DNA from: Gautieria morchelliformis | Taxonomy: Eukaryota > Basidiomycota > Agaricomycetes > Gomphales > Gomphaceae | Length of the DNA: 64,000 bases | Assembly (NCBI GenBank): GCA_015179125.1 | Contig: WHVA01000402.1 | Location: 1-64,000 of the forward strand | Reading direction: 5' to 3' | In this document: positions 9,349 to 51,045 of the stretch, piece after piece | Position numbering within the stretch: position 1 is the stretch's first letter | Layout: the number at the start of each line of letters is the position of its first letter | Program-made: the position numbers and the translations under genes | The notes under the pieces: model-generated | The model's input: only the letters and a program-made list of their open reading frames with translations | Told to the model about the DNA's origin: nothing | The model's database searches: none

Positions 9349-9746
9349 CACTGCAGGCATATAAAAGTTTTCTTGACTGAAAAACTGTAGAAAAAACTGT
9401 AAAGATTTTCCAAATATTTTTAGTGTTTTTTATATAAAAAAACTATAATAAAATTTTGTGTTTTTATTAGAATTTGTTGAGCAAGAAAATTGTAAAAAAA
9501 TTCAAAGTTTTTTTCAGGGTTTTTTATGGGTTTCTTTGTGTTTTCACAAAGAAACTTATAAAAAGACATAAAAAACCCTGCAAAAGACTTTAAACTTTTT
9601 TACAATTTTCTTGCTCAACAAATTCTAACAAAAACACAAAATTTTGTTAAAGTTTTTTTACATTAAAAATACTAAAAAAATTTGGAATATCTTTACATTT
9701 TTTTGAACAGTTTTTCAGACCAGAAATTTTTTATATGCCTCCAGTG
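9349..9746. mobile_element. CACTG foldback MITE, copy 1
   Basis: A 398-bp element with ends CACTGCAGGCATATAAAA and TTTTATATGCCTCCAGTG, flanked by an exact 3-bp duplication TAC (9346-9348 and 9747-9749). The two halves are near-complete reverse complements over about 190 bp each, so the whole unit folds into one hairpin. CACT-type termini with 3-bp target duplications are characteristic of the CACTA (En/Spm) superfamily; it has no coding capacity. It sits inside the RNase H region of gypsy element A. Relatives are at 31462-31858 and 50646-51045. Confidence 0.85.
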
Positions 9747-31461: not shown

Positions 31462-31858
31462 CACTGCAGGCATATAAAAGTTTTCTTGTCTGAAAAACTG
31501 TTCAAAAAACTCTAAAGATATTCCAAATATTTTTAGTGTTTTTTATGTAAAAAAAAACTCTAATAAAATTTTGTGTTTTTATTAGAATTTGTTGAGAAAA
31601 TTGTAAAAAAATTCCAAGTTTTTTTTTAGGGTTTTTTATGGGTTTCTTGGTGTTTTCACAAAGAAACTTATAAAAAGACAAAAAAAAACCTGCAAAAAAC
31701 TTGTAAACTTTTTTATAATTTTCTTGCTCAACAAATTCTAACAAAAACACAAAATTATGTTAAAGTTTTTTTACATTAAAAACACTGAAAAAATTGGCAT
31801 ATCTTTACAGTTTTTTGAACAGTTTTTCAGTCAAGAAAATTTTTATATGCCTCCAGTG
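31462..31858. mobile_element. CACTG foldback MITE, copy 2
   Basis: A 397-bp member of the same family as 9349-9746: same CACTGCAGGCATATAAAA end, same palindromic body. It is flanked by AGA on both sides (31459-31461 and 31859-31861) in a GA-rich target, so the 3-bp duplication is consistent but not unique. Confidence 0.8.
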
Positions 31859-34495: not shown

Positions 34496-37400
34496 ATGTA
34501 AGTTGAAGTGGGGTGCTTGATTGTTCCTCTAAGCTTATGCCTACATTTCTCAGGGATCCTTCTACTCCAGAGAGAAATCGTCAGCAGGAGCGTGAAAGGG
34601 CGAGGGAGGAGCAGGAGGGTCGTATGACGTCGCCTACTGATCGGAGAGCGCGTGCCCTTGCTGTGGCTGCTGCCAGAGCTTGGAACCAGCCACCCCCTCC
34701 ACCACCTCCTTTTGCCATCCCTCACCCTCCTCCTAGAAGCAATGCGGCTGATCCTTTTCATCAACCTGCTGCAGGGCCATTACGTCCTCCTGATCCCAGT
34801 CCTGGACAGCAGGTGGCAGCCCTTCGTGCTCAGTTAGCAGCAATCCCAGCAGCACAGCCCGTGAGAAGATACAGGCAGGCGCCTATACAGCCACCTCCCA
34901 ATCTTCCTGTGGTTGGTTCTGCAGGAATTGCACAGTTGCATGCTCAGGCTGCTGAGCAGTCTGCTATATTGCAGCAATTGGGAAGAGGTAGACAGGCAGC
35001 TAATCCTCCTGTAGTAGGTTCTGCAGGAGTGGCAGCATTGCGTGCTCAGGCCAATGCAATAAGACCAATGCCTCCGCTACTCCCTGCGCTTCTGCGGCCT
35101 CTTCAGCGACTCCCTGCACCTCCTCAGCCTCCTCAGCCACTCCCTGCACCTCCTCAGCCTCCTCAGCCACTCCCTCCACAGCCTCTTCTGCCACTCCCTG
35201 CACCTCCTCAGCCTCCTCAGCCACACCCTGTACCTTGGCAGCGTCCTCAGCGACTTCCTCCTTTTATTCCACTCGGTCGCTCTAGAATAATTGAGGCAGA
35301 TGTGCTGCGTCATGATATGGGTCCCATGGTTGTTGCCTGCCCTGACTGTGGAGCATTACACTGGATGGCAGAACACCTGCTGAGATCCTCAAATCGGCGG
35401 CCCAGATTTGGTGATTGCTGTTTAGAAGGAAAGGTGCAGCTTCCAGAGCTGCCAGTGCTCCCTCAGCCATTGAGACGGCTCTTAGAGGGCCAGGACCCTG
35501 AGGCCAAACAGTTTCGCAAGAACATCAGGCAGTACAATGCTGCATTTGCATTCACTTCCTTGGGAGCCGAGTTTGATCTAGATTTGCTTCGGGAGGGTCG
35601 TGGTCCATATGTCCTCAAGCTACAGGGCGAACTGTATCATATTCATGGCTCTCTCATCCCTAACCCTGGGAGGCGGATACAGTATGCCCAACTTTATATC
35701 TATGATCCAGCATTGGCTTTGGCACAGAGGAACACCCGTAACCCAGGTCTGTCTCCAACTATCATGGGAGACTTGCAGGAAATGCTCCTCCTATGTAATC
35801 CTCATGTTCCCATATATAGACAAGCGGCTGAGAGGCTCAGAGCTCAGGGACAGAATGGTGAGATCCGGGCTAGGCTCACATACAGGGAACACAGGGATCC
35901 TAGGAGGTATAATATCCCTACTGCGGATGAGATTGCAGTGGTTCTTCCTGGAGATGGCATCAACCCTGAACCTAGGGATGTTATTGTCCAGCTCAAAGGT
36001 GGACGCTTTCGAAGGGTATCCGATATGAATCCAAACTATGCCTCTCTTCACTATGTCTTGCTCTTTCCCAGGGGAGAGTTGGGGTGGCAACCGGGTATTC
36101 GCTATCGCCAATTACCAGACGGGCGTGAGCGAAGTGGGCATGTCACCCAAATTCAGTTCCATTCCTATCGTCTCTTCCAGAGAACAGAAGAACCTACAAC
36201 ACTCCTGCGTGCTGGCAAATTATTCCAGCAGTACATTGTAGACTCTTGGGCCGCTGCAGAGCAAAGCAGGCTGTGGTGGATCAGGACAAATCAACACACT
36301 CTCCGTGCTGAGATGTATAACCAGATGATGGATGCCTTTCATCGCAATGACAATGACAGAGATCCAAACAACTTGGGCATAAGATCCATTCTGCCTGCCA
36401 CATTTCAGGGGGGGACACGGGACATGCAGGAAAACCTGCAGAACTCTCTGGCCATTTCAAGGAAGTATGGTGTGGCAGATCTCTTTATTACCATGACTGC
36501 CAATCCCAACTGGCAGGAGGTATTGGATGCATTGTTGCCCGGACAAACTCCTCAGGACAGACCTGACCTGGTGTCGCGGGTGTTCCAGCTCAAAAAGAAA
36601 TACCTCATTGACTTGATCGTCAAGGAAAAGATTTTTGGGGAAACCGTCGCTCGCGTCCACACCATTGAATTCCAGAAAAGGGGACTCCCACACATGCATA
36701 TTCTTATCTGGTTTGAAAGAGATTCCAAGATCAGACATCCACATGAGGTGGATTCAATGATTTCGGCAGAGTTCCCTGATCCAGAGACTCATCCTGTCCT
36801 CTACTGGTTGGTCTGTGAGCTGATGACACATGGTCCCTGTGGACAAATGAAACCAAACGCACCCTGCATGGAAAATGGCAAGTGCAAGAAAAACTTCCCA
36901 AAGCCATTCTGTGAGGAAACCAGTCTGAATGAGGATGGATATCCAAAATATCGTCATCGCAATGATGGAAGGCTGCACAATGTCAGAGGTGACATGCTGG
37001 ACAACAGATGGGTTGTGCCATACTCTGCTCTGCTCTTGCTCAAATTCTGGTGTCACATCAACCCTGAACTCACCATCAATGTGAGGTGTATCAAGTATAT
37101 CCACAAGTATCTCTACAAGGGCCATGATTGGACCACCATGGAGTTTGGTCGCACCCAGGATGAAATTAAGCAGTACCTGGACGCTCGCTATGTCAGTGCT
37201 CATGAGGCCTGTTGGAGGTTGCTGGAGCAGGAAATCCACACCCAGGTGCCTGCAGTCATGGCACTGCCGGTCCATGAAAAGGACCATCACACAATCATCT
37301 TTGATCCCAACCAGGATGTGGACAACATCCTGGAAAGGGCTGAGGCGAAAAAGACACCGCTCATGGCTTACTTTGAGGCCAATGATATCTACCCTGAAGC

Positions 37401-39441
37401 ACGTGATCTGCTCTATGTGGAGTTTCCTGAGCATTTTACCTGGCAAGCACAGGAAAAGGTATGGACACCACGCCAAAGAAGTTTTAGCATCGGTCGCCTT
37501 CACTTTGCAAACCCTAAATCAGGAGAGAGATTTTTTGTGCGCACTCTCCTCACAGTGGTCAAGGGGGCTAGATCCTTTGAGGAGCTTAGGTCGGTGGATG
37601 GCATACAATATGCTACTTACAAGGAGGCCTGTCGTGCAAGGGGACTTCTGGATGATGATCAGGAGTTGAGGTTGTGTCTCCAGGAAGCCAGTGGCATGAA
37701 AACAGGTGCTCAGCTCAGACATCTCTTTGCCACCATCCTTGGCCATTGCAATCCATCGGGCCCTGGCAGATTATGGGATGGCTTCAGGGAGCACATATGT
37801 GATGATCTCAGACATCAGCTCCAAATCAGACATGGTATGCAGAATCCACAGGACGATCAGGTTTATGATTTTGGCCTCTTTCTCTTGGAAAAAATCCTCC
37901 AGCAGGGTGGAATGTCCTTGAGCAGCTTTGATGATATGCCTCGGGTGGCAGGCGAGTGGGAGGCCCTCATTGGAAACAGGTTCATAGCTGAGCAGAGGGA
38001 CTATGACCCTGTTGCAGAGAGGGACATAGCTGATGAGGAGGTTCCCAGGCTGAATGAGGGGCAAAGGTCTGCGCATGATCAGATATTACGGTCGGCACTG
38101 ACCAGAGATGCTCATGGGAAACCTGATGGACAAATGTTTTTTGTCACTGGCTCAGGTGGTGCTGGGAAATCATTCACATGGAACACTCTAATCCACTCCT
38201 GTAGAGCGGAGAGCCTCATTGTGATTGCAGTAGCCTCATCTGCAATGGCTGCACTTATCCTCACTAAGGGTACAACCTCTCATAGCATGCTTGGAATTCC
38301 CATTCCTGTCCATGAGCGCTCTTTCTCCTCCATCAAAAAGAACTCTGACAAGGCTGACATGCTGAGACAGGCCAGTCTCCTCATCTGGGATGAGGCTGCA
38401 ATGCAGCATCGCCATGCCATAGAGGCCATTGACAGGACACTGAGGCATTTCCTTGACCAGCCTGATAGACCCTTTGGTGGCATCACAGTCGCCTTTGGAG
38501 GTGACTTTCAGCAGACTCTGCCAATTGTCCCTAAAGGCTCCAAGGAGGATATCGTGGGAGCTACCCTTCAGAAGTCATATCTGTGGCCAAAGATCAAGGT
38601 CATCCATCTGACAGAGAACATGCGGGTGAGAAATGACCCTGACAGAGCCATGTTTGCAGAATGGCTGCAGAATGTGGGCCAGGGAAAGGATCTCCCACTA
38701 GATCATACGTTCTCACTGCCTCCTCACATGGTGTGTGGCCCTGGAATTGAAGATCTGATCCAGGAAATATACCCTGGCATTGGCAATCAAGTCCCTGCCC
38801 AGGATAATTACTTTCTGGAGTGTGCCATCCTCTGTGCCAGAAACACTGAGGTCAATGAGATCAATTCCATGGTGTTTAGGGAGTTTCCAGGTGATGCTCA
38901 GGCCTTGCACTGCGCAAATTCCATTGAAGAATCCGACGATATAGATCAGTATCCTGTGGAGTATCTGAATTCCATAGAGATGGGCTGTCTTCCTCCTGCT
39001 CGCTTGGAAGTCAAGCCTGGAGTGCCTCTGATGCTGTTGTGCAATTTGGATCAGAAGCAAGGACTATGCAATGGGACAAGGTTGCGGTTGGTGAGGATAA
39101 GCATTAGAGTGTTGGAGGTCAGGATCATCTCAGGTCCATGTGCAGGAAATATTGCTTTCATCCCCAGGATCATCATTAAGCCATCAGAGGGAGAGTTGCC
39201 ATTTGTGCTGAAAAGGAGGCAGTTTCCAGTGCGTTTGGCATTTGCAATGACCATCAACAAGTCTCAGGGACAGTCTTTGGGTACGGTTGGGCTGGACCTG
39301 AGATATCCAGTGTTTGGACATGGTCAGTTGTATGTTGGTGTATCAAGAGGGACCAACTGGAACAGAGTCAAGGTCTTGCTTGAGGAGGGTTTGGACACAA
39401 CCAACATTGTATATAAAGATGTATTACTTAGAGCTCCTTGA
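34496..39441 (+). CDS. Helitron Rep/PIF1-helicase, intact (1629 aa)
   Basis: Nicks and unwinds DNA for rolling-circle transposition. The start codon is split by an intron: AT at 34496-34497, GTAAGT...TTCTCAG intron 34498-34553, G at 34554, giving MDPSTPERNRQQERERARE. The same arrangement in Helitron 2 supports it. An unspliced ATG at 34537 in frame is an alternative. After a Pro/Gln-rich N-terminus comes a zinc-finger-like CPDCGALHW (35339-35365) and the Helitron N-terminal domain. The HUH motif lies in GLPHMHILIWF (about 36685-36717), the Tyr motif in CIKYIHKYLYKG (about 37087-37122). The PIF1 helicase has Walker A GSGGAGKS (about 38150-38173), Walker B LLIWDEAA, FGGDFQQTLPI and a C-terminal TINKSQGQSLGTVGLDL. 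No stops or frameshifts: an active-looking protein of usual family length. Confidence 0.9.
34498..34553 (+). other. Intron splitting the Helitron 1 start codon
   Basis: 56-nt intron: donor GTAAGT, branch-like CTAAG, acceptor TTTCTCAG. The exons join AT to G, making an ATG in frame with the long coding region. Position and phase are the same in Helitron 2 (40858-40914). Read from sequence only. Confidence 0.7.
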
Positions 39442-39468
39442 TTTTTTTATATCCACTTCTCTTGATAT

Positions 39469-39787
39469 GATTCATTATTTGTTAAAAATAATGATGGGCA
39501 AGTAATTAATATTAAAACGGGCGAAATAATTAGAGACACTTTTGTAGTTGAAGTAGTAAGAATGAATAATACAGTATCTATTTATCCCACAATCTCCGAT
39601 TGTGCCTCAGCTTTTGAGATCTCCCGAACAATCATTTATAATAGACTGGCAAATGGAAACTCTTTACCTGATAAAGGAATAAGCCAAATAAGAAAAATAA
39701 GAGTCTATGTTTAGTAGTCAAATTCTTAAATAGGTAAATAGATTATTCTAAATTAAAAGAATCTATTTTTTTTAGTTTATTTGACGT
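39469..39787 (+). other. AT-rich captured insert with NUMOD/HTH-like frame in Helitron 1
   Basis: About 310 bases absent from Helitron 2, where CTTGATATGG runs straight into TTTATGTGTTTGACTTC. It is far more AT-rich than its surroundings. A plus-strand frame open from 39466 to a stop at 39712-39714 (82 codons) reads NNDGQVINIKTGEI, then RMNNTVSIYPTISDCASAFE, then ISRTIIYNRLANGNSLPD. The pattern of a short strand pair followed by a helix-turn-helix (ISDCASAFEISRTIIYNRL) resembles NUMOD1-type modules of mitochondrial homing-endonuclease ORFs. It looks like the tail of a larger gene, as no ATG opens it before 39562. An organellar or mitochondrial-plasmid origin is inferred from composition and motif, not proven. 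Confidence 0.55.
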
Positions 39788-39910
39788 TATGTGTTTTACT
39801 TCATTGTACTTGATGCAAATTGATTACTTTGATTTTCCCCAATGTACTTGACCTTACTGATATGCTAGACTTACTGATGCATTTGACCCTACCGAGGCGC
39901 TTGACCTACA

Positions 39911-39938
39911 CCCGCGCGAAGCGCGGGTACCCACCTAG
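39911..39938 (+). other. 3' terminus of Helitron 1 (hairpin and CTAG)
   Basis: Stem CCCGCGC/GCGCGGG with GAA loop (39911-39927), 11-base spacer TACCCACCTAG ending in CTAG, followed by T. This is the Helitron termination signal; the identical signal is at 45992-46019. Confidence 0.85.
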
Positions 39939-40301
39939 TTACACTATATGAAAACAGCTCGGTGGGTTGTGGGTGTCGAGCTTATGTCAGGTTTTAGGTC
40001 AGCATTAGTCAGCTGGCCAATCAGATGCGAGCGGCGCAGCTGGCCCAAACCGGTTCATGCCGGGCTGCCGGTTTGCGCCAGTCTTCCAGCTCCAGCGCTC
40101 AATGCGGCTGCGCAGCGTTCTGGAGCACGCGAGCGGTGCAGCCGCGAGCTTATCAGCGGTTGACGCCGGTCTGCGCGCTCAAAGCAGCACTGCGCTGGCA
40201 GAACGCTGCACAGCCGCTTTCGCGCACTCCACCACCACCCTCCTCTCCTCTCTCCCCAGTAGATAGAATAAAATTGCGTGAGAGTGAATTAATAGATAGC
40301 C

Positions 40302-40855: not shown

Positions 40856-43800
40856 ATGTAAGTTGAATTCTGGTAGCTTGATTGTTCATCTAAGCTTATA
40901 CCTGCATTTCTCAGGTATCCATCTACTCCAGAGAGAAATCGTCAGCAGGAGCGTGAAAGGGCAAGGGAGGAGCAGGAGGGTCATATGACATCGCCCACTG
41001 ATCGGAGAGCACGTGCGCTTGCTGCTGCTGCTGTCAGAGCTCAGGACCAGCCACCCCCTCCCCCACAGCCTTTTGCCATCACTCACCCTCCTCCTAGAAG
41101 CAATGTCGCTGATCCTTTTCAACAACCTGTGGCCAGGCCATCACGTCCTCCTATGCTTGCACCCTCTTCACGTCTGCCCATGCTGGCACCATCATCACGT
41201 CCTCCTAATCTCAGTCCTGGAGAGCAGGTGGCAGCCCTTCATGCTCAGTTAGCAGTTATCCCACCATTACAGCCTCTGAGAAGAAATAGGCCAGACCCTG
41301 TACAGCCAGCTCCTATAGTAGGTTCAGCAGCCATTGCAGACTTGCGTGCTCAGGTAGCTGCATTGCGGCCTTTGGGAAGGCACAGGCCTGCATCTGTACA
41401 ACCAGCGCCTCCTCCTGTAGTAGGTTCTTCAGGAGTGGCAGCATTGCGTGCTCAGGCCAATGCAATAAGACCAATGCCTCCGCTACTCCCTGCGCTTTTG
41501 CGGCCTTTTCAGCGACTCCCTCCACCTCCTCAGCCTCCTCAGCGACTCCCTGCACCTCCTCAGCCTCCCCAGCCATTCCCTGCACCTCCTCAGCCGCTCC
41601 CTGCACCTCCACAGCCTCTTCAGCCACTCTCTGCACCTCCTCAGCCTCCTCAGCCACTCCCTATACCTCGGCAGCATCCTCAGCGACCTCCTCCTTTTAT
41701 TCCACTCGGTCGCTCTAGAATAATCGAGGCAGATGTGCTGCATCATGATCTGGGTCCCATGGTTGTTCCCTGCCCTGACTGTGGAGCATTACACTGGATG
41801 GCAGAACGCCTGCAGAAATCCTCAAATGTGCGGCCCAGGTTTGGTGATTGCTGTATGGAAGGAAAGGTGCAGCTGGAAGACCTGCCACAGCCCCCTCAGC
41901 CATTGAAACAGCTCTTAGAAGGCCAGGACCCTGAGGCAAAAGGATTTCGCCAGAATATCAGGCAGTATAATGCTGCATTTGCATTCACTTCTGTGGGGGC
42001 CAACTTTGACCAAGATTTGCTTCGGGAGGGTCGTGGTCCATATGTGCTCAAGCTACAGGGTGAACTGTATCATCTCCATGGCTCTCTCCTCCCTGACAAT
42101 GAAGACGATCCAAAGTATGCCCAGCTTTACATATATGATCCTGCACTGGCTTTGGCAAGAGAAAGGATCGTAATGAGCATCTGTCTCCAACTATCATGGG
42201 AGACTTGCAGGAAATGCTCCTGCTATGCAATCCTCATGTGCGCACATATAAACAAGCAGCTGAGAGGCTCAGAGCTCAAGAACAGAATGGTGACATCCAG
42301 GCAAGGCTCACATACAGGGCACACAGGGATCCTAGGAGATATAATGTCCCAACTGCAGATGAGTTTGCAGTCGTTCTTCCTGGAGATGGCATCGACCCTG
42401 AACCTAGGGATATTATAGTCCAGCTCAGAGGTGGACCTTTCAGAAGGGTATTGGATACCAATGCAAACTATGCCTCTCTGCACTATGTCTTGCTCTTTCC
42501 CAAGGGAGAGTTGGGATGGGAACCAGGTATTCCTTATCATGAGCCAGAGCGTGCTCGGCAGGCCAATCCCAATCCAAACAGACGGACACAGGTCACCCAA
42601 ATACAGTACCATGCGTATCGTCTGTTCCAGAGAGCGAGAGAACCTACAACACTCCTGCGTGGTGGCAAATTGTTCCAGCAGTACATTGTAGACTCCTGGG
42701 CTGCTGCAGAGCAAAGCAGACTGAGGTGGATCAGGGCCAATCAACACACTCTGCGTGCTGAGCAGTATAACCAGATGGTAGATTCATATGGAGGCTTGGA
42801 CAATGACATTGGAGATGCAAACAGCTTGGGCATAAAAGTCATTCTGCCTGCGACATTTCAAGGAAGTACCATGACTGCCAATCCAAAGTGGGATGAGATA
42901 GTGGCTGAGTTGCTCCCTGGACAAACTCCTCAGGACAGACCTGACCTGGTGTCGCGGGTGTTTCACCTCAAAAAGAAATACCTCATTGACTTGATCATCA
43001 AGGACAAGATCTTTGGAGAAACCGTCGCTCGCGTTCACACTATTGAATTCCAGAAGAGGGGGCTCCCACACATGCACCTGCTTACCTGGTTCGATAGGGA
43101 GTCCAAGGTCAAACATCCACATGAGGTGGATTCTATGATTTCAGCAGAGTTCCCTGATCCAGAGACACATCCTGTCCTCTACCAGTTGGTCTGTGAGCTG
43201 ATGACACATGGTCCCTGTGGACAAATGAATCCAAATGCACCCTGCATGGAAAATGGCAAGTGCAAGAAAGGCTTCCCAAAGCCATTCTGTGAGGAGACCA
43301 TTGTGAATCTAGATGGATATCCAAAATATCGTCGTTGCAATGATGGAAGGCTGCACAATGTCAGAGGTGACATGCTGGACAACAGATGGGTTGTGCCATA
43401 CTCTGCTCTGCTCTTGCTCAAACTCCGGTGTCACATCAACCTTGAATTCACCTTCAGTGTGAGGTGCGTCAAGTATATCCACAAGTATCTATACAAGGGC
43501 CACGATTGGACCACGATGGAGTTTGGTGTCGACCATCATGAGATAAAGAAGTACCTGGACGCTCGCTATGTCAGTGCTCATGAGGCCTGTTGGAGGTTGC
43601 TGGAGCGGGAAATCCACACCCAGGTGCCTGCAGTCATGGCACTGCCAGTCCATGAAAAAGACCAGCAATCAGTCGTTTTCAATCCTGATGCTGATCCGCT
43701 CACCATCATGAACAGGGTCGAGGGGTCAAAGACAGCGCTCATGGCTTACTTTGAGGCCAATGCTGCCTACCCTCATGCACGCGATGTGCTCTATGTGGAT

Positions 43801-45819
43801 TTTCCTGAGCATTTTACCTGGAAAAAAGAGGAAAGGGTATGGACACCACGTCAAAGGGGATATAGCATTGGATGCCTTCACTTTGCAAGCCCAAAATCAG
43901 GAGAGAGATTTTATTTGCGCACTCTCCTCACGGTGGTCAAGGGGGCCAGATCCTTTGAGGAGCTTAGGACGGTGGATGGCATACAATGTGCTACTTACAA
44001 GGAGGCCTGTCTTGCCAGGGGACTTCTGGAGGATGATCAGGAGTGGAGGATGTGTCTCCAGGAACCCAGTGGCATGAAAACAGGCGCTCAGCTCAGACAT
44101 CTCTTTGCCACCATCCTTGGTCATTGCATTCCCTCACAACCTGACAGACTATGGGATGCCTTCAAGGAGCACATATGTGATGATCTCAGACATCGGCTCC
44201 AAATCAGGCACAATATCCAGGAGCCACGGGATGATCAGGTCTATGATTTTGGCCTCTTTCTCTTGGATAAACTCCTTCAGCGTAATGGCATGTCCTTGAG
44301 CAGCTTTAAAGATATGCCTCAGGTGGTAGGCGAGTGGGAGGTCCTGATTGGAAACAGGTTCATAGCTGAGCAGAGGGACTATGACCCTGTTCAAGAGAGG
44401 CAGATGGCTGATGAGGAGGTTCCCAAGCTGAATGAGGGGCAAAGGTCTGCGCATGATCAGATATTACGGTCGGCACTGGACATAGATGCTCAGGGGAAAC
44501 CTAATGGACAAATGTTTTTCGTCACTGGCTCAGGGGGCGCTGGGAAATCATTCACATGGAACACCCTAATCCACTCCTGTAGAGCGGAGAGTCTCATTGT
44601 GCTTGCAGTAGCCTCATCTGCAATGGCTGCACTTATCCTCACTAATGGGACAACCTCTCACAGCATGCTTGGAATTCCAATTCCTGTCCATGAGGGCTCT
44701 CTCTCCTCCATCAAAAAGAACTCTGACCAGGCTGATATGCTGAGACTGGCCAGGCTCATCATTTGGGATGAGGCTGCAATGCAGCATCGCCATGCCATAG
44801 AGGCCATTGACAGGACACTGAGGGATTTCCTTGACCAGCCTGACCGACCCTTTGGTGGCATCACGGTTGCCTTTGGAGGTGACTTTCAGCAGACTCTCCC
44901 AATTGTCCCCAAAGGCTCCAAGGAGGATATCATGGGAGCTACCCTTCAGAAGTCATATCTGTGGCCAAAGATCAAGGTCATCCATCTGACAGAGAACATG
45001 CGGGTGAGAAATGACCCTGACAGAGCCAGGTTTGCAGAATGGCTGCAGAATGTGGGTCAGGGAAAGGATCTCCCACTAGATCATACCTTCTCACTCCCTC
45101 AACACATGGTTTGTGGCCCTGGAATTGCAGAGCTGATCCAGGAAATATACCCTGGCATTGGCAATGCAATCCCTGCCCAGGACAATTATTTCTTGGAGCG
45201 GGCCATCCTCTGTCCCAGAAATATTGAGGTCAATGAGATCAATTCCATGGTGTTGAGGCAGTTTCCAGGTGATGCTCAGGTCTTCCACTGTGCAGATTCT
45301 GTCAAGGAAACCGACTTTGCAGAGCAGTATCCTGTGGAGTATCTGAATTCCATAGAGATGGGCAGTCTTCCTCCTGCTCACTTGGAAGTCAAGCCTGGAG
45401 TGCCTCTGATGATGTTGCGCAATTTGGATAAGAAGCAAGGACTATGCAATGGGACAAGGTTGCGGTTGGTGAGGATGAGGAATAGAGTGTTGGAGGTCAG
45501 GATCATCTCAGGTCCACGTGCAGGAAATACTGCTTTCATCCCCAGGATCACCATTTCACCATCAGAGGGGGAATTACCATTTGTGCTGCAGAGGAGACAG
45601 TTTCCAGTGCGTGTGGCATTTGCAATGACCATCAACAAGTCTCAGGGACAGTCTTTGGGTACGGTTGGGCTGGACCTGAGATATCCAGTGTTTGGACATG
45701 GTCAGTTGTATGTTGGTGTTTCAAGGGGAACAAGCTGGAAAAAAGTGAAGGTCTTGCTTGAAGAGGGTTTGAACACAACCAACATTGTATATAAAGATGT
45801 ATTACTTAGAGCTCCTTGA
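40856..45819 (+). pseudogene. Helitron Rep/PIF1-helicase, broken
   Basis: Homologue of the 1629-residue protein of Helitron 1. The frame is open from the split start codon to about 42165, where a one-base change after LALARER shifts it; the rest is open from 42196 to 45819. Near 42870 an in-frame deletion of 27 codons removes the block that in Helitron 1 reads AISRKYGVADLFIT, a conserved part of the Helitron N-terminal domain. The HUH motif (GLPHMHLLTWF), the Tyr motif (CVKYIHKYLYKG), Walker A (GSGGAGKS) and the other helicase motifs remain. It is probably unable to transpose alone but might be mobilised by Helitron 1, since the ends match. Confidence 0.85.
40858..40914 (+). other. Intron splitting the Helitron 2 start codon
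   Basis: 57-nt intron with GTAAGT donor and TTTCTCAG acceptor. AT (40856-40857) joins G (40915) and the frame continues YPSTPERNRQQERERARE. Helitron 2 has no ATG inside the intron, so here the spliced codon is the only upstream start; the next ATG in frame is 40985. Confidence 0.7.
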
Positions 45820-45991
45820 TTTTTAATATCCACTTCTCTTGATATGGTTTATGTGTTTGACTTCATTTTACTTGATGGAAATTGATTACTTTGATTTTCC
45901 CCAATGTGCTTGACCTTACTTATATGTTAGACTTACCGATGTGTTAGACTTACTGATGCATTTGACCTTACTGAGGCGTTTGACCTACACC

Positions 45992-46019
45992 CCCGCGCGA
46001 AGCGCGGGTACCCACCTAG
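45992..46019 (+). other. 3' terminus of Helitron 2 (hairpin and CTAG)
   Basis: Same stem-loop and TACCCACCTAG spacer as Helitron 1, followed by T and then LINE sequence. Confidence 0.85.
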
Positions 46020-47578
46020 TTACCTTTGAAACCCGATCCATCCGAGTAGATGCTTATGTTGTCTAGCCTGGTCCTGAGCCTGCGTGCAGCATCCGGTTTG
46101 CTACCAGCAACGTTGGTAGTAAAAGAGGGGCGCCAGCTGGGGTGATGTCGGCTGTGATGGATGGTCTCAATGGTGTGTGGCTTGATCTTGTAGCGCCAGA
46201 GGAGGTTGTGGATCGGGGAGGGATGGGTGCGCGGACATCTCTTCGCCCCGCTCTGAACTGCTCTGAAAAGGGGGTGAGTGTCAGGGAGGGTGGCAAGGCG
46301 AAGGGCCTCACGATGACAGGTGTCATCAAGGCGAAGCCAAACTGGAGGGATCATGGCATGAAGTTCCATAATGTCCGTAGCTGTTGACCTGTATGCCCCA
46401 GTGATCAGTATACAACCTAGACGCTGTACCTTCTCCAGGATCTTCAGGTGTCCGACCGACCCAGTTTGGTGACCCGTGCTGGCAGCTTGGTGTGGAGGGG
46501 TGAACCATACTGGGAGCGCATACTCGAGCTTGGGCAGCACCATGGAGGTGTAGAGTTGGCAGACATGACATTCAGGAAGACCAAAGGAAGGCCTGGTGAG
46601 CCTCTTCACAGCCAGAAGGAGGCTCTCAGCCTTCTGTACCGCTTGCTGCACGTGCTGGTGCCATCTGAGCTCCTGATCGATCAGGACCCCTAGCAGGCGC
46701 GCCTCAGGTACACACGTGATAACATGCTGGGTTTGTCTGTGGATGAAGTCAGCATGCTGTATGTTCTTGCACCACGTGAGCCTTAGGCACTGAAATTTGG
46801 AGAGTTCAGCATGGGAGTTGTGGGCTGCCGACCAGTCTGTCTGCTTGTTAAGCATGTCATTGAGAATCCCATCGCACTCTTTGAAGGAGTTGCCGGTTGC
46901 TACAAAGAAGTTATTGTCCACGTAAGCACCGCCATCTTCATTTGCACCTTGTGGAATGGCCATGAGGCCATAGCTATAGATGAGGTAAAGGATCATTGAG
47001 GCAGTTTCACCTTGCCTGATTCCATTGGCAATATCAATGGGCATCGAGGAGAAATGGTCAAAACTTAGCGTGGCTTTTCTATTTCTGAGCATGGCCTCAA
47101 AGAAGACTACAACCTCATTTGGATATCCTAGCCTGAACATGTTTTTGAGGAGGCGGTCAGTCACCACATTGGGGAAGGCATTTGCAATGTCAAGAAAGAC
47201 AATTGTGACTACCTTGTGATTGTGCCAGGCTGACTTGACATGATGAGTGAGAGGAAGGAGCGAGTCCACAGTAGTCCTCTGAAGTGATGTGAGGGGAGGA
47301 GGTTGTGGTGGACCGTGAGGTACACCATTATGTCAGTCATTACCCCGGAGATTACCTTACCCATCGTGTTGTATAGCGCGATAGGCCTGTAGGCCTTAGC
47401 GATGGTGTAGTCCGAACGGCCTGGCTGGTGTGGAACTATGGTCTTCCAGGTGCGCCAGTGAGCTGGAAAGTAGCCTAGCTGGAGGATAGCCCACAGGCAG
47501 ATGTGGAGAAGTGGCGCCAACGTGCTTGCACATTCCTTCAAGACTACATTTGGGATGCCATCCTCGCCAGGACCCTTG
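46020..47578 (-). mobile_element. LINE (Tad-like), reverse transcriptase half
   Basis: Minus-strand non-LTR reverse transcriptase. From the high-coordinate end: GPGEDGIPN (about 47550-47575), YRPIALYNTMGKVISGVM (about 47330-47390), motif A TIVFLDIANAFPNVV (about 47165-47210), motif B NGIRQGETAS (about 47000-47030), motif C YVDNNFFVA (about 46895-46925), then thumb and C-terminal regions, and the first RNase H Asp in IYSDGSGF at 46020-46060. Motif C has Asn in place of the second catalytic Asp (YVDN instead of Y-x-D-D), and a frameshift near 47240 separates two open parts, so it is inactive. The 5' side stops abruptly at 47578; ORF1 is not present. Confidence 0.85.
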
Positions 47579-49640: not shown

Positions 49641-50645
49641 TGTGATGCACCAAATGTTGTGGTTGGAAAATACAAAATGTGTCCCAAACGGTTCCAAAAC
49701 ACAAAATAAAGTATTTGGAAAAAAATTCTTAGTCTGCACTTCAAGAGTATATAACTCAGCTACCCTGCATTATTTGGCTAAACCCTTTCCTACAAATTCA
49801 AACTAGGCATATTGAGAGAAACTCTTAGGACTCAAATAAGTCAGAACTTAATGTATGTGGGTGGAATTGAGGATGTCAGAAGGCGGCTGCTACTGGCCTG
49901 CTCACTTTCATAAAGGTCACTGGTTCCTGGTGTCCACTATCTTAGGAACATGAGGGTCGGTATTACTAATGGGAAAACAATGACAGATGTCACCTTGAGG
50001 GACGTGCTATATTGCCCGGACCTTGCTTTCACCCTGGTCACCCTGGTCTCCCTAGTGCGCTGTGATGCAGCCGGTTATTCAGTCCTGTTGAAGGACCGAA
50101 AGTGTTTGATTCGAGACGTGAAAGGGACACTGATTGGACAGGTCCTGCTCTCAAATGGTCTCTACAAAGTGGAGCACAGGTCAATGGCAGCAGCAGCAAA
50201 TGTAGCAAGGAAACCACTCATGATGGACGAATTGCACTGCCGGATGGGGCATATTTCCCCACAGGCCACTAGGAAATTGGTCCAGGACAGTACTATCACA
50301 GGGCTTGAGGTTTACATGGCTAGTCAGCCCGGATTTTGCATGGCATGTGTGCAAGCCAAGCCCACGCGGAAACCTGTCCCACAGAAGAGGGAGGGTCCGT
50401 GTGCCGGTAAATTTGGCAAGAAGGTCCATTCAGACATCTGGGGGCCAGCAAACCCTCAAAGCTATGATGGAAAGGGATACTTCATCAGCTTCACCAACGA
50501 TTACAATTGGTGGACATACCTGGTATCAATGGCCAAGAAGAGTGATGCTTTCAGCTGCTACAAGCAGTATGCAGCCTGGGTCAAAATGCAGCATGGTGCA
50601 AGGTTAAAGCGACTGCAGACTGACTGTGGGGGGGAGTACCTCTCC

Positions 50646-51045
50646 CACTGGAGGCACATAAAAAATTTCTGGTCTGAAAAACTGTTCAAAAGACTATAAA
50701 GATTTTCCCAATATTTTTAGTGTTTTTTATGTGAACAAACTATGATAAAATTTTGTGTTTTTATTAGAATTTATCAAGCAAGAAAACTGTAAAAAGATTG
50801 AAAGTTTTTTGCAGGGTTTTTTATGGGTTTCTTTGTGATTTCACAAAGAAACTTATAAAAAACACATAACAAACCCTGCAAAAAACTTTAAACTTTTTTA
50901 CAGTTTTCTTGCTCAACAAATTCTAACAAAAACACAAAATTTTGTTAAAGTTTTTTTTTACATAAAAACACTAAAAAAATTTGGAATATCTTTACAGTTT
51001 TTTGAACAGTTTTTCAGACCAGAAAATTTTTATATGCCTCCAGTG
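50646..51045. mobile_element. CACTG foldback MITE, copy 3
   Basis: A 400-bp member of the family at 9349-9746, ends CACTGGAGGCACATAAAA and TTTTATATGCCTCCAGTG, palindromic body. Flanking triplets are TCC (left) and TAC (right), two of three matching, so the target duplication has mutated or the border is off by a base. Inserted in a copia integrase region. Confidence 0.8.

Follow-up and report, generated by a model that had tools for sequence, protein, structure and literature searches.

One of the two Helitrons in the window (the whole 64,000-nt stretch of Gautieria morchelliformis DNA analyzed here) carries a short AT-rich segment that a sequence-only reading had placed at 39469-39787 and considered possibly mitochondrial, raising the question of what this segment is and how it came to lie within the element. 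The features that bear on this question are listed below.

34507..39441, plus strand: Helitron 1 Rep/helicase ORF, uninterrupted, 1644 aa from stop to stop (Helitron_like_N, E 8e-58; PIF1, E 3e-65)
39473..39787, plus strand: AT-rich insert of 315 bp, plausibly foreign; joined flanks exact in loci L034, L042 and L055
39478..39714, plus strand: truncated open frame, 78 codons plus TAG, open at the left junction
~39577-39669, plus strand: helix-turn-helix (HTH)-like segment of the frame, with weak HTH-type family matches (core E 0.004-0.25)
39736..39773, plus strand: possible AT-rich hairpin and T run after the frame stops, not significant
39787: T, a possible 1-bp duplication or microhomology
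39910..39939, plus strand: Helitron 1 3' terminus, with a hairpin (39910-39928) ACCCGCGC-GAA-GCGCGGGT followed by CTAG|T
42139..46020, plus strand: Helitron 2 3' part, with the empty site at 45849/45850

An AT-rich insert in one Helitron copy

The host element is a Helitron by its Rep and PIF1 helicase ORF, its 3' hairpin and its CTRR end. The insert starts 31 bp past the stop codon of the Rep/helicase ORF and, because it is placed between this transposase ORF and the downstream 3' hairpin and CTAG end, it disrupts nothing obvious. Helitron 2 lies downstream, is 81-91% identical to Helitron 1 over the four longest aligned blocks, and ends in the same 3' terminus; it is uninterrupted at the insert site.

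The limits of the insert were taken from BLAST and from direct reading against the closest empty copies, since a MAFFT alignment misplaced the gap. The closest genomic copies to Helitron 1 (L034, L042, and L055) read GATATG-ATT-TATGTG at the site, and Helitron 1 reads GATATG-ATT-(CATTATTTG...TTTGACGT)-TATGTG; the joined flanks (39401-39472 plus 39788-39860, 145 bp) are identical at 145 of 145 positions in all three. The AT-rich segment of about 310 bp described from the sequence is therefore real, with a length of 315 bp and a GC content of 0.279 (28%), versus 0.505 for the window. Its right limit stands as first given, and its left limit shifts from 39469 to 39473 against the closest empty copies. 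No target bases are lost at the site and any duplication is at most one ambiguous T, so that this 145-bp empty-site comparison with three copies reveals an end-joined insertion lacking a transposon-like target duplication, as in a NUMT. Because the joined flanks are exact in three other copies and the site is empty elsewhere, the insertion is derived and came without target loss, and both the reality of the insert and its derived state are confirmed. It is also younger than the split between Helitron 1 and L034, as L034 is 98.5% identical to Helitron 1 over 1873 bp upstream of the insert. The locus is thus a well-bounded, recent case of foreign AT-rich DNA in a high-copy transposon, and the letter-exact empty sites in sister copies make the joining reaction readable as clean and without loss.

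The Helitron is a high-copy repeat, with 1561 first-look candidates in a search with the Helitron 2 3' region, and the site was uninterrupted in 40 of 40 among the matches listed in that search. Joined flanks were spanned in all 30 loci fetched from this set, which is biased to uninterrupted copies. When copies were chosen by the left flank alone, the 19 others fetched (39 others were listed) were likewise all empty. Altogether, 52 of the 68 loci tested span the joined flanks; these correspond to 46 places, Helitron 2 included, as six places occur twice by their coordinates. The remaining 16 loci are uninformative on the site: each was retrieved with the downstream stretch, and the left flank is not visible in any of them. 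The 52 loci (46 places) are all empty; presence of the segment in most Helitrons of the family was what the earlier reading had said would refute its proposal.

The same reading had held the insert to be present only in Helitron 1, and this is borne out. In the assembly (122 Mb, 1113 contigs), a DNA search that skips very common words matches the insert at no place but its own, and a protein search with its frame likewise returns nothing else at E ≤ 10. Because both searches match at one place only, there is no sign that the insert has been mobilized or amplified, evidence that is strong but not absolute; cargo captured by Helitrons is recognized by its amplification in several element copies, and here one copy was found.

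The open frame and its family similarities

The frame within the insert is closed by tandem TAG stops and has 78 codons from 39478, or 82 from 39466, such that the 82-codon frame noted previously is present if read from the latter position. Among 20,000 sequences generated by a first-order Markov model of the insert's composition, 1.8% had an open run of at least 80 codons in any of the six frames under standard stops, and 6.1% did so when TGA was taken as Trp. The frame length is therefore only moderately above chance, and the insert probably derives from coding sequence, though this is not certain.

Searches of Pfam, NCBIfam, PHROGs (best E 0.15) and PDB sequences (none) with the 78-aa frame gave nothing significant, and its structure predicted without an alignment (mean pLDDT 54.5) is too low in confidence for a fold search. 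The weak matches of the frame agree on a helix-turn-helix in residues 28-63. The best of these is to the bacterial plasmid replication HTH rep_pAB02 (E 0.02, or E 0.004 with a 31-aa core, where it scores 17.5 bits against a cut-off of 85). Below their cut-offs are also the NCBIfam family TIGR01453 (group I intron endonuclease), matched at its C-terminal end (E 0.1 with the 78-aa query, and not listed for 49- or 31-aa pieces of the frame) and I-TevI_DNA-bd (PF20987; E 0.11, the best Pfam match of the 31-aa core, and not listed with the 78-, 82- or 49-aa queries); HTH_28 is matched by the 31-aa core only (E 0.25). Ten shuffles of the core gave one Pfam match (Rossmann-like, E 0.21), and the first eight gave none in NCBIfam, which puts the HTH signal somewhat above background. 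The NCBIfam scan of the frame also listed malate synthase (E 0.06), and we took the Pfam matches of the whole frame to GDH_2nd (E 0.09) and Scm3 (E 0.2) as chance.

These similarities make a helix-turn-helix in the frame probable, and it may be of the intron-endonuclease type. Like the I-TevI-type and NUMOD1 modules (PF20987, PF07453, TIGR01453), the truncated AT-rich frame has an HTH-like segment in its C-terminal half, but it differs from them in that the matches are at E ~0.1 and with some cuts of the frame only, NUMOD1 itself gives no match, and no nuclease domain was found in the insert fragment. NUMOD1 (PF07453) is absent from Pfam scans of the frame at E ≤ 10, where filters drop most matches above ~0.1, and a PF07453 search of the genome listed four places, the insert not among them. 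The proposed comparison with NUMOD and HTH families thus yields weak HTH matches, none of them significant, and the original description of the frame as NUMOD1-type is over-precise, there being a weak HTH similarity instead of a family match. Searching the genome for GIY-YIG gave a single place (C1103, E 1.3e-11).

Among 50,697 phage records, the sole tblastn match of the frame is to Ruegeria phage Tedan (E 0.9), and it covers residues 14-43 of a 113-aa protein whose best NUMOD1 stretch (E 1e-7) is at residues 63-85 and which matches I-TevI_DNA-bd at residues 2-35 (E 0.002). We note that this protein, P67b_00047 (L076 1162-1503), is annotated as a 'hypothetical protein' and has two NUMOD1 stretches over the limit plus other HTH matches; of its 16 Pfam matches at E ≤ 0.1, none is to a nuclease family beyond endonuclease DNA-binding domains. 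It has three relatives in the phage records, itself included, none confirmed among 17 pattern matches in viral contigs, and no useful match in PDB.

Past the stops, a terminator-like hairpin was considered and rejected. The 71 nt following the first stop fold at -10.8 kcal/mol, which 16 of 200 shuffles equal (z -1.36), and a 41-nt piece past the stops adopts a different fold when folded alone. An Rfam scan gave only RF03794 (E 2.5) and RF01158 (E 1), both far under their gathering scores.

Origin of the insert

The assembly has no COX1 match and so apparently lacks the mitochondrial genome of the species, but it does contain other NUMT-like fragments with which the insert can be compared. C178 has nad5 pieces that match Proton_antipo_N (E 2e-16) and Proton_antipo_M (E 2.5e-6 and 3e-8), and C175 has a LAGLIDADG_1 piece (E 1e-10) with a sub-threshold cox2 piece (E 0.006) nearby. 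The nad5 NUMT is in two pieces with other sequence between them (L074 400-1690), and the AT-rich patches with cox2 and LAGLIDADG_1 fragments are separated by a GC-richer stretch (L073 801-1710).

GC contents at the three codon positions are 0.37/0.35/0.22 in the insert frame, similar to those of the nad5 parts (0.32/0.37/0.22 and 0.42/0.44/0.20) and the LAGLIDADG NUMT (0.41/0.32/0.17), in small samples with no significance computed. They are far from those of both nuclear transposon ORFs measured, copia and Helitron (0.60/0.43/0.50 in the latter). Dinucleotide distances from the insert, from similarly small samples and without a computed significance, are 0.12 for the LAGLIDADG locus and 0.16 for nad5, versus 0.22 for the Helitron ORF and 0.32 for one AT-rich palindrome of the window. 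Third-position C counts against a mitochondrial origin, being 0.15 in the insert frame versus 0.06-0.10 in the three NUMT stretches, and low GC is not by itself proof of such an origin. In outline, the organelle-like, foreign origin proposed by the earlier reading is plausible.

The single-copy derived insertion, the clean joins, the foreign composition and the similar local NUMTs lead us to favor, as probable though well short of certain, a NUMT-type extranuclear fragment that was ligated into a double-strand break of one Helitron copy by nonhomologous end joining (NHEJ). The donor would be extranuclear and probably mitochondrial DNA, either mitochondrial chromosome or plasmid, and the piece may derive from the 3' end of an intron-endonuclease-like ORF; a double-strand break would have opened in one Helitron copy, and end joining would have sealed the fragment into it. 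Three elements of this account are inferred: that the donor was mitochondrial, that the frame is endonuclease-like, and that the fragment entered by break repair. Precedents for such a route are reported in the cited texts: numts enter double-strand breaks via NHEJ, as borne out in yeast (PMC2820518), and among 71 primate numts analyzable on both sides, 30 have blunt joins on both, with deletions in seven of the 30, these both-sides-blunt events deleting least (PMC2567098). Mitochondrial-nuclear shared fragments were found in two Paxillus species (11 and 62 fragments; PMC7333402), and such fragments therefore occur in basidiomycetes.

The insert is like NUMTs in being short, AT-rich, present in one copy and cleanly joined, with no target loss and a duplication of at most 1 bp, and in having other NUMT-like fragments in the same assembly. 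It differs in that the likeness is one of composition and joins and not of a matched mitochondrial source, and in that it sits inside a Helitron. The clean-join signature fits numt entry, and filler DNA of any origin could give the same. Speaking against a NUMT, no family of mitochondrial proteins or homing endonucleases is significantly matched by the frame, and its best HTH similarity is to bacterial plasmid replication. If the NUMT reading is right, the mechanism is an ordinary one and the location mildly unusual for a small NUMT.

That bacterial similarity of the HTH core speaks for a different donor of the filler DNA, namely a bacterium, a phage or a large DNA virus, in which case the frame, with the possible hairpin and T run, would represent a gene end. 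The sole phage match (E 0.9) is to a NUMOD1-carrying protein, and the sequence past the stops allows a hairpin, though not a significant one. We nonetheless regard such a donor as rather unlikely: no relative at E ≤ 1e-3 was found in 84,980 prokaryote species genomes (GTDB; 132 pattern matches, none confirmed) or in IMG/VR (six pattern matches, none confirmed), both scans of the frame reaching close relatives only, none of 72,556 plasmids gave a match at E ≤ 10, and the composition of the insert resembles that of the local NUMTs.

It is unlikely, in our estimate, that the Helitron picked up a piece of a mitochondrial plasmid or intron-borne mobile gene by filler-DNA repair, as cargo that could amplify later; were this so, cargo from a mitochondrial mobile element would now sit in a Helitron with an uninterrupted transposase, past the ORF and ahead of the 3' terminus. 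True gene capture during transposition, giving a mobile cargo-bearing lineage, we consider quite improbable. The filler-DNA model, as described in PMC6544945, predicts a segment internal to the element, as here, and a filler-DNA origin has been proposed in PMC4289320 for a cargo-bearing Helitron of Pleurotus ostreatus; the insert resembles such captures in being foreign DNA internal to Helitron 1, between the ORF and the 3' hairpin. It differs from them in showing no sign of propagation, and its join carries no timing relative to transposition. The model also predicts short homologies at the source flanks (PMC6544945 and PMC4289320). Filler-DNA capture is the same repair event as NUMT entry, viewed from the side of the transposon, and the earlier suggestion of capture by the Helitron may hold to this extent, as break-repair filler in one copy, and not as a segment that was mobilized. 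The stem 'mitochondri' is absent from the text of PMC4289320, and a narrow literature search of titles and abstract openings found no description of mitochondrial DNA inside a fungal Helitron, which does not imply that none is published. The locus is a tangible example of how organellar cargo could enter Helitrons; it establishes no new mechanism.

It is very improbable that the insert stems from AT-rich nuclear DNA of the host or from the remains of a transposon. The window does contain three other, longer AT-rich patches, but these differ from the insert in sequence and are by eye fold-back palindromes of ~400 bp ending in CACTG; moreover, no second copy of the insert was found in the assembly, and the codon-position GC of its frame is far from that of the two nuclear transposon ORFs measured. 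An assembly artifact, with mitochondrial or contaminant reads stitched into a high-copy repeat where assemblers can err, is scarcely credible for an insert that is base-exact in register with no base lost.

Other repeats in the window

The three AT-rich palindromes are at 9349-9746, 31462-31858 and 50646-51045, with ends (by eye) like CACTGCAGGCATATAAAA...TTTTTATATGCCTCCAGTG, and they resemble CACTA-type MITEs. Repeats of 3 bp flank the first (TAC) and the second (AGA), but not the third (TCC/TAC); by eye, this third palindrome ends a copia-like ORF at 49914-50699.

Directly past the CTAG end of Helitron 1, the sequence at 39939-40175 recurs immediately after other Helitron 3' ends. All 237 bp are present at 97% identity in L054, and the first 102 bp at 93-96% in L029, L038, L039, L066 and L069, a recurrence that suggests head-to-tail Helitron arrays.
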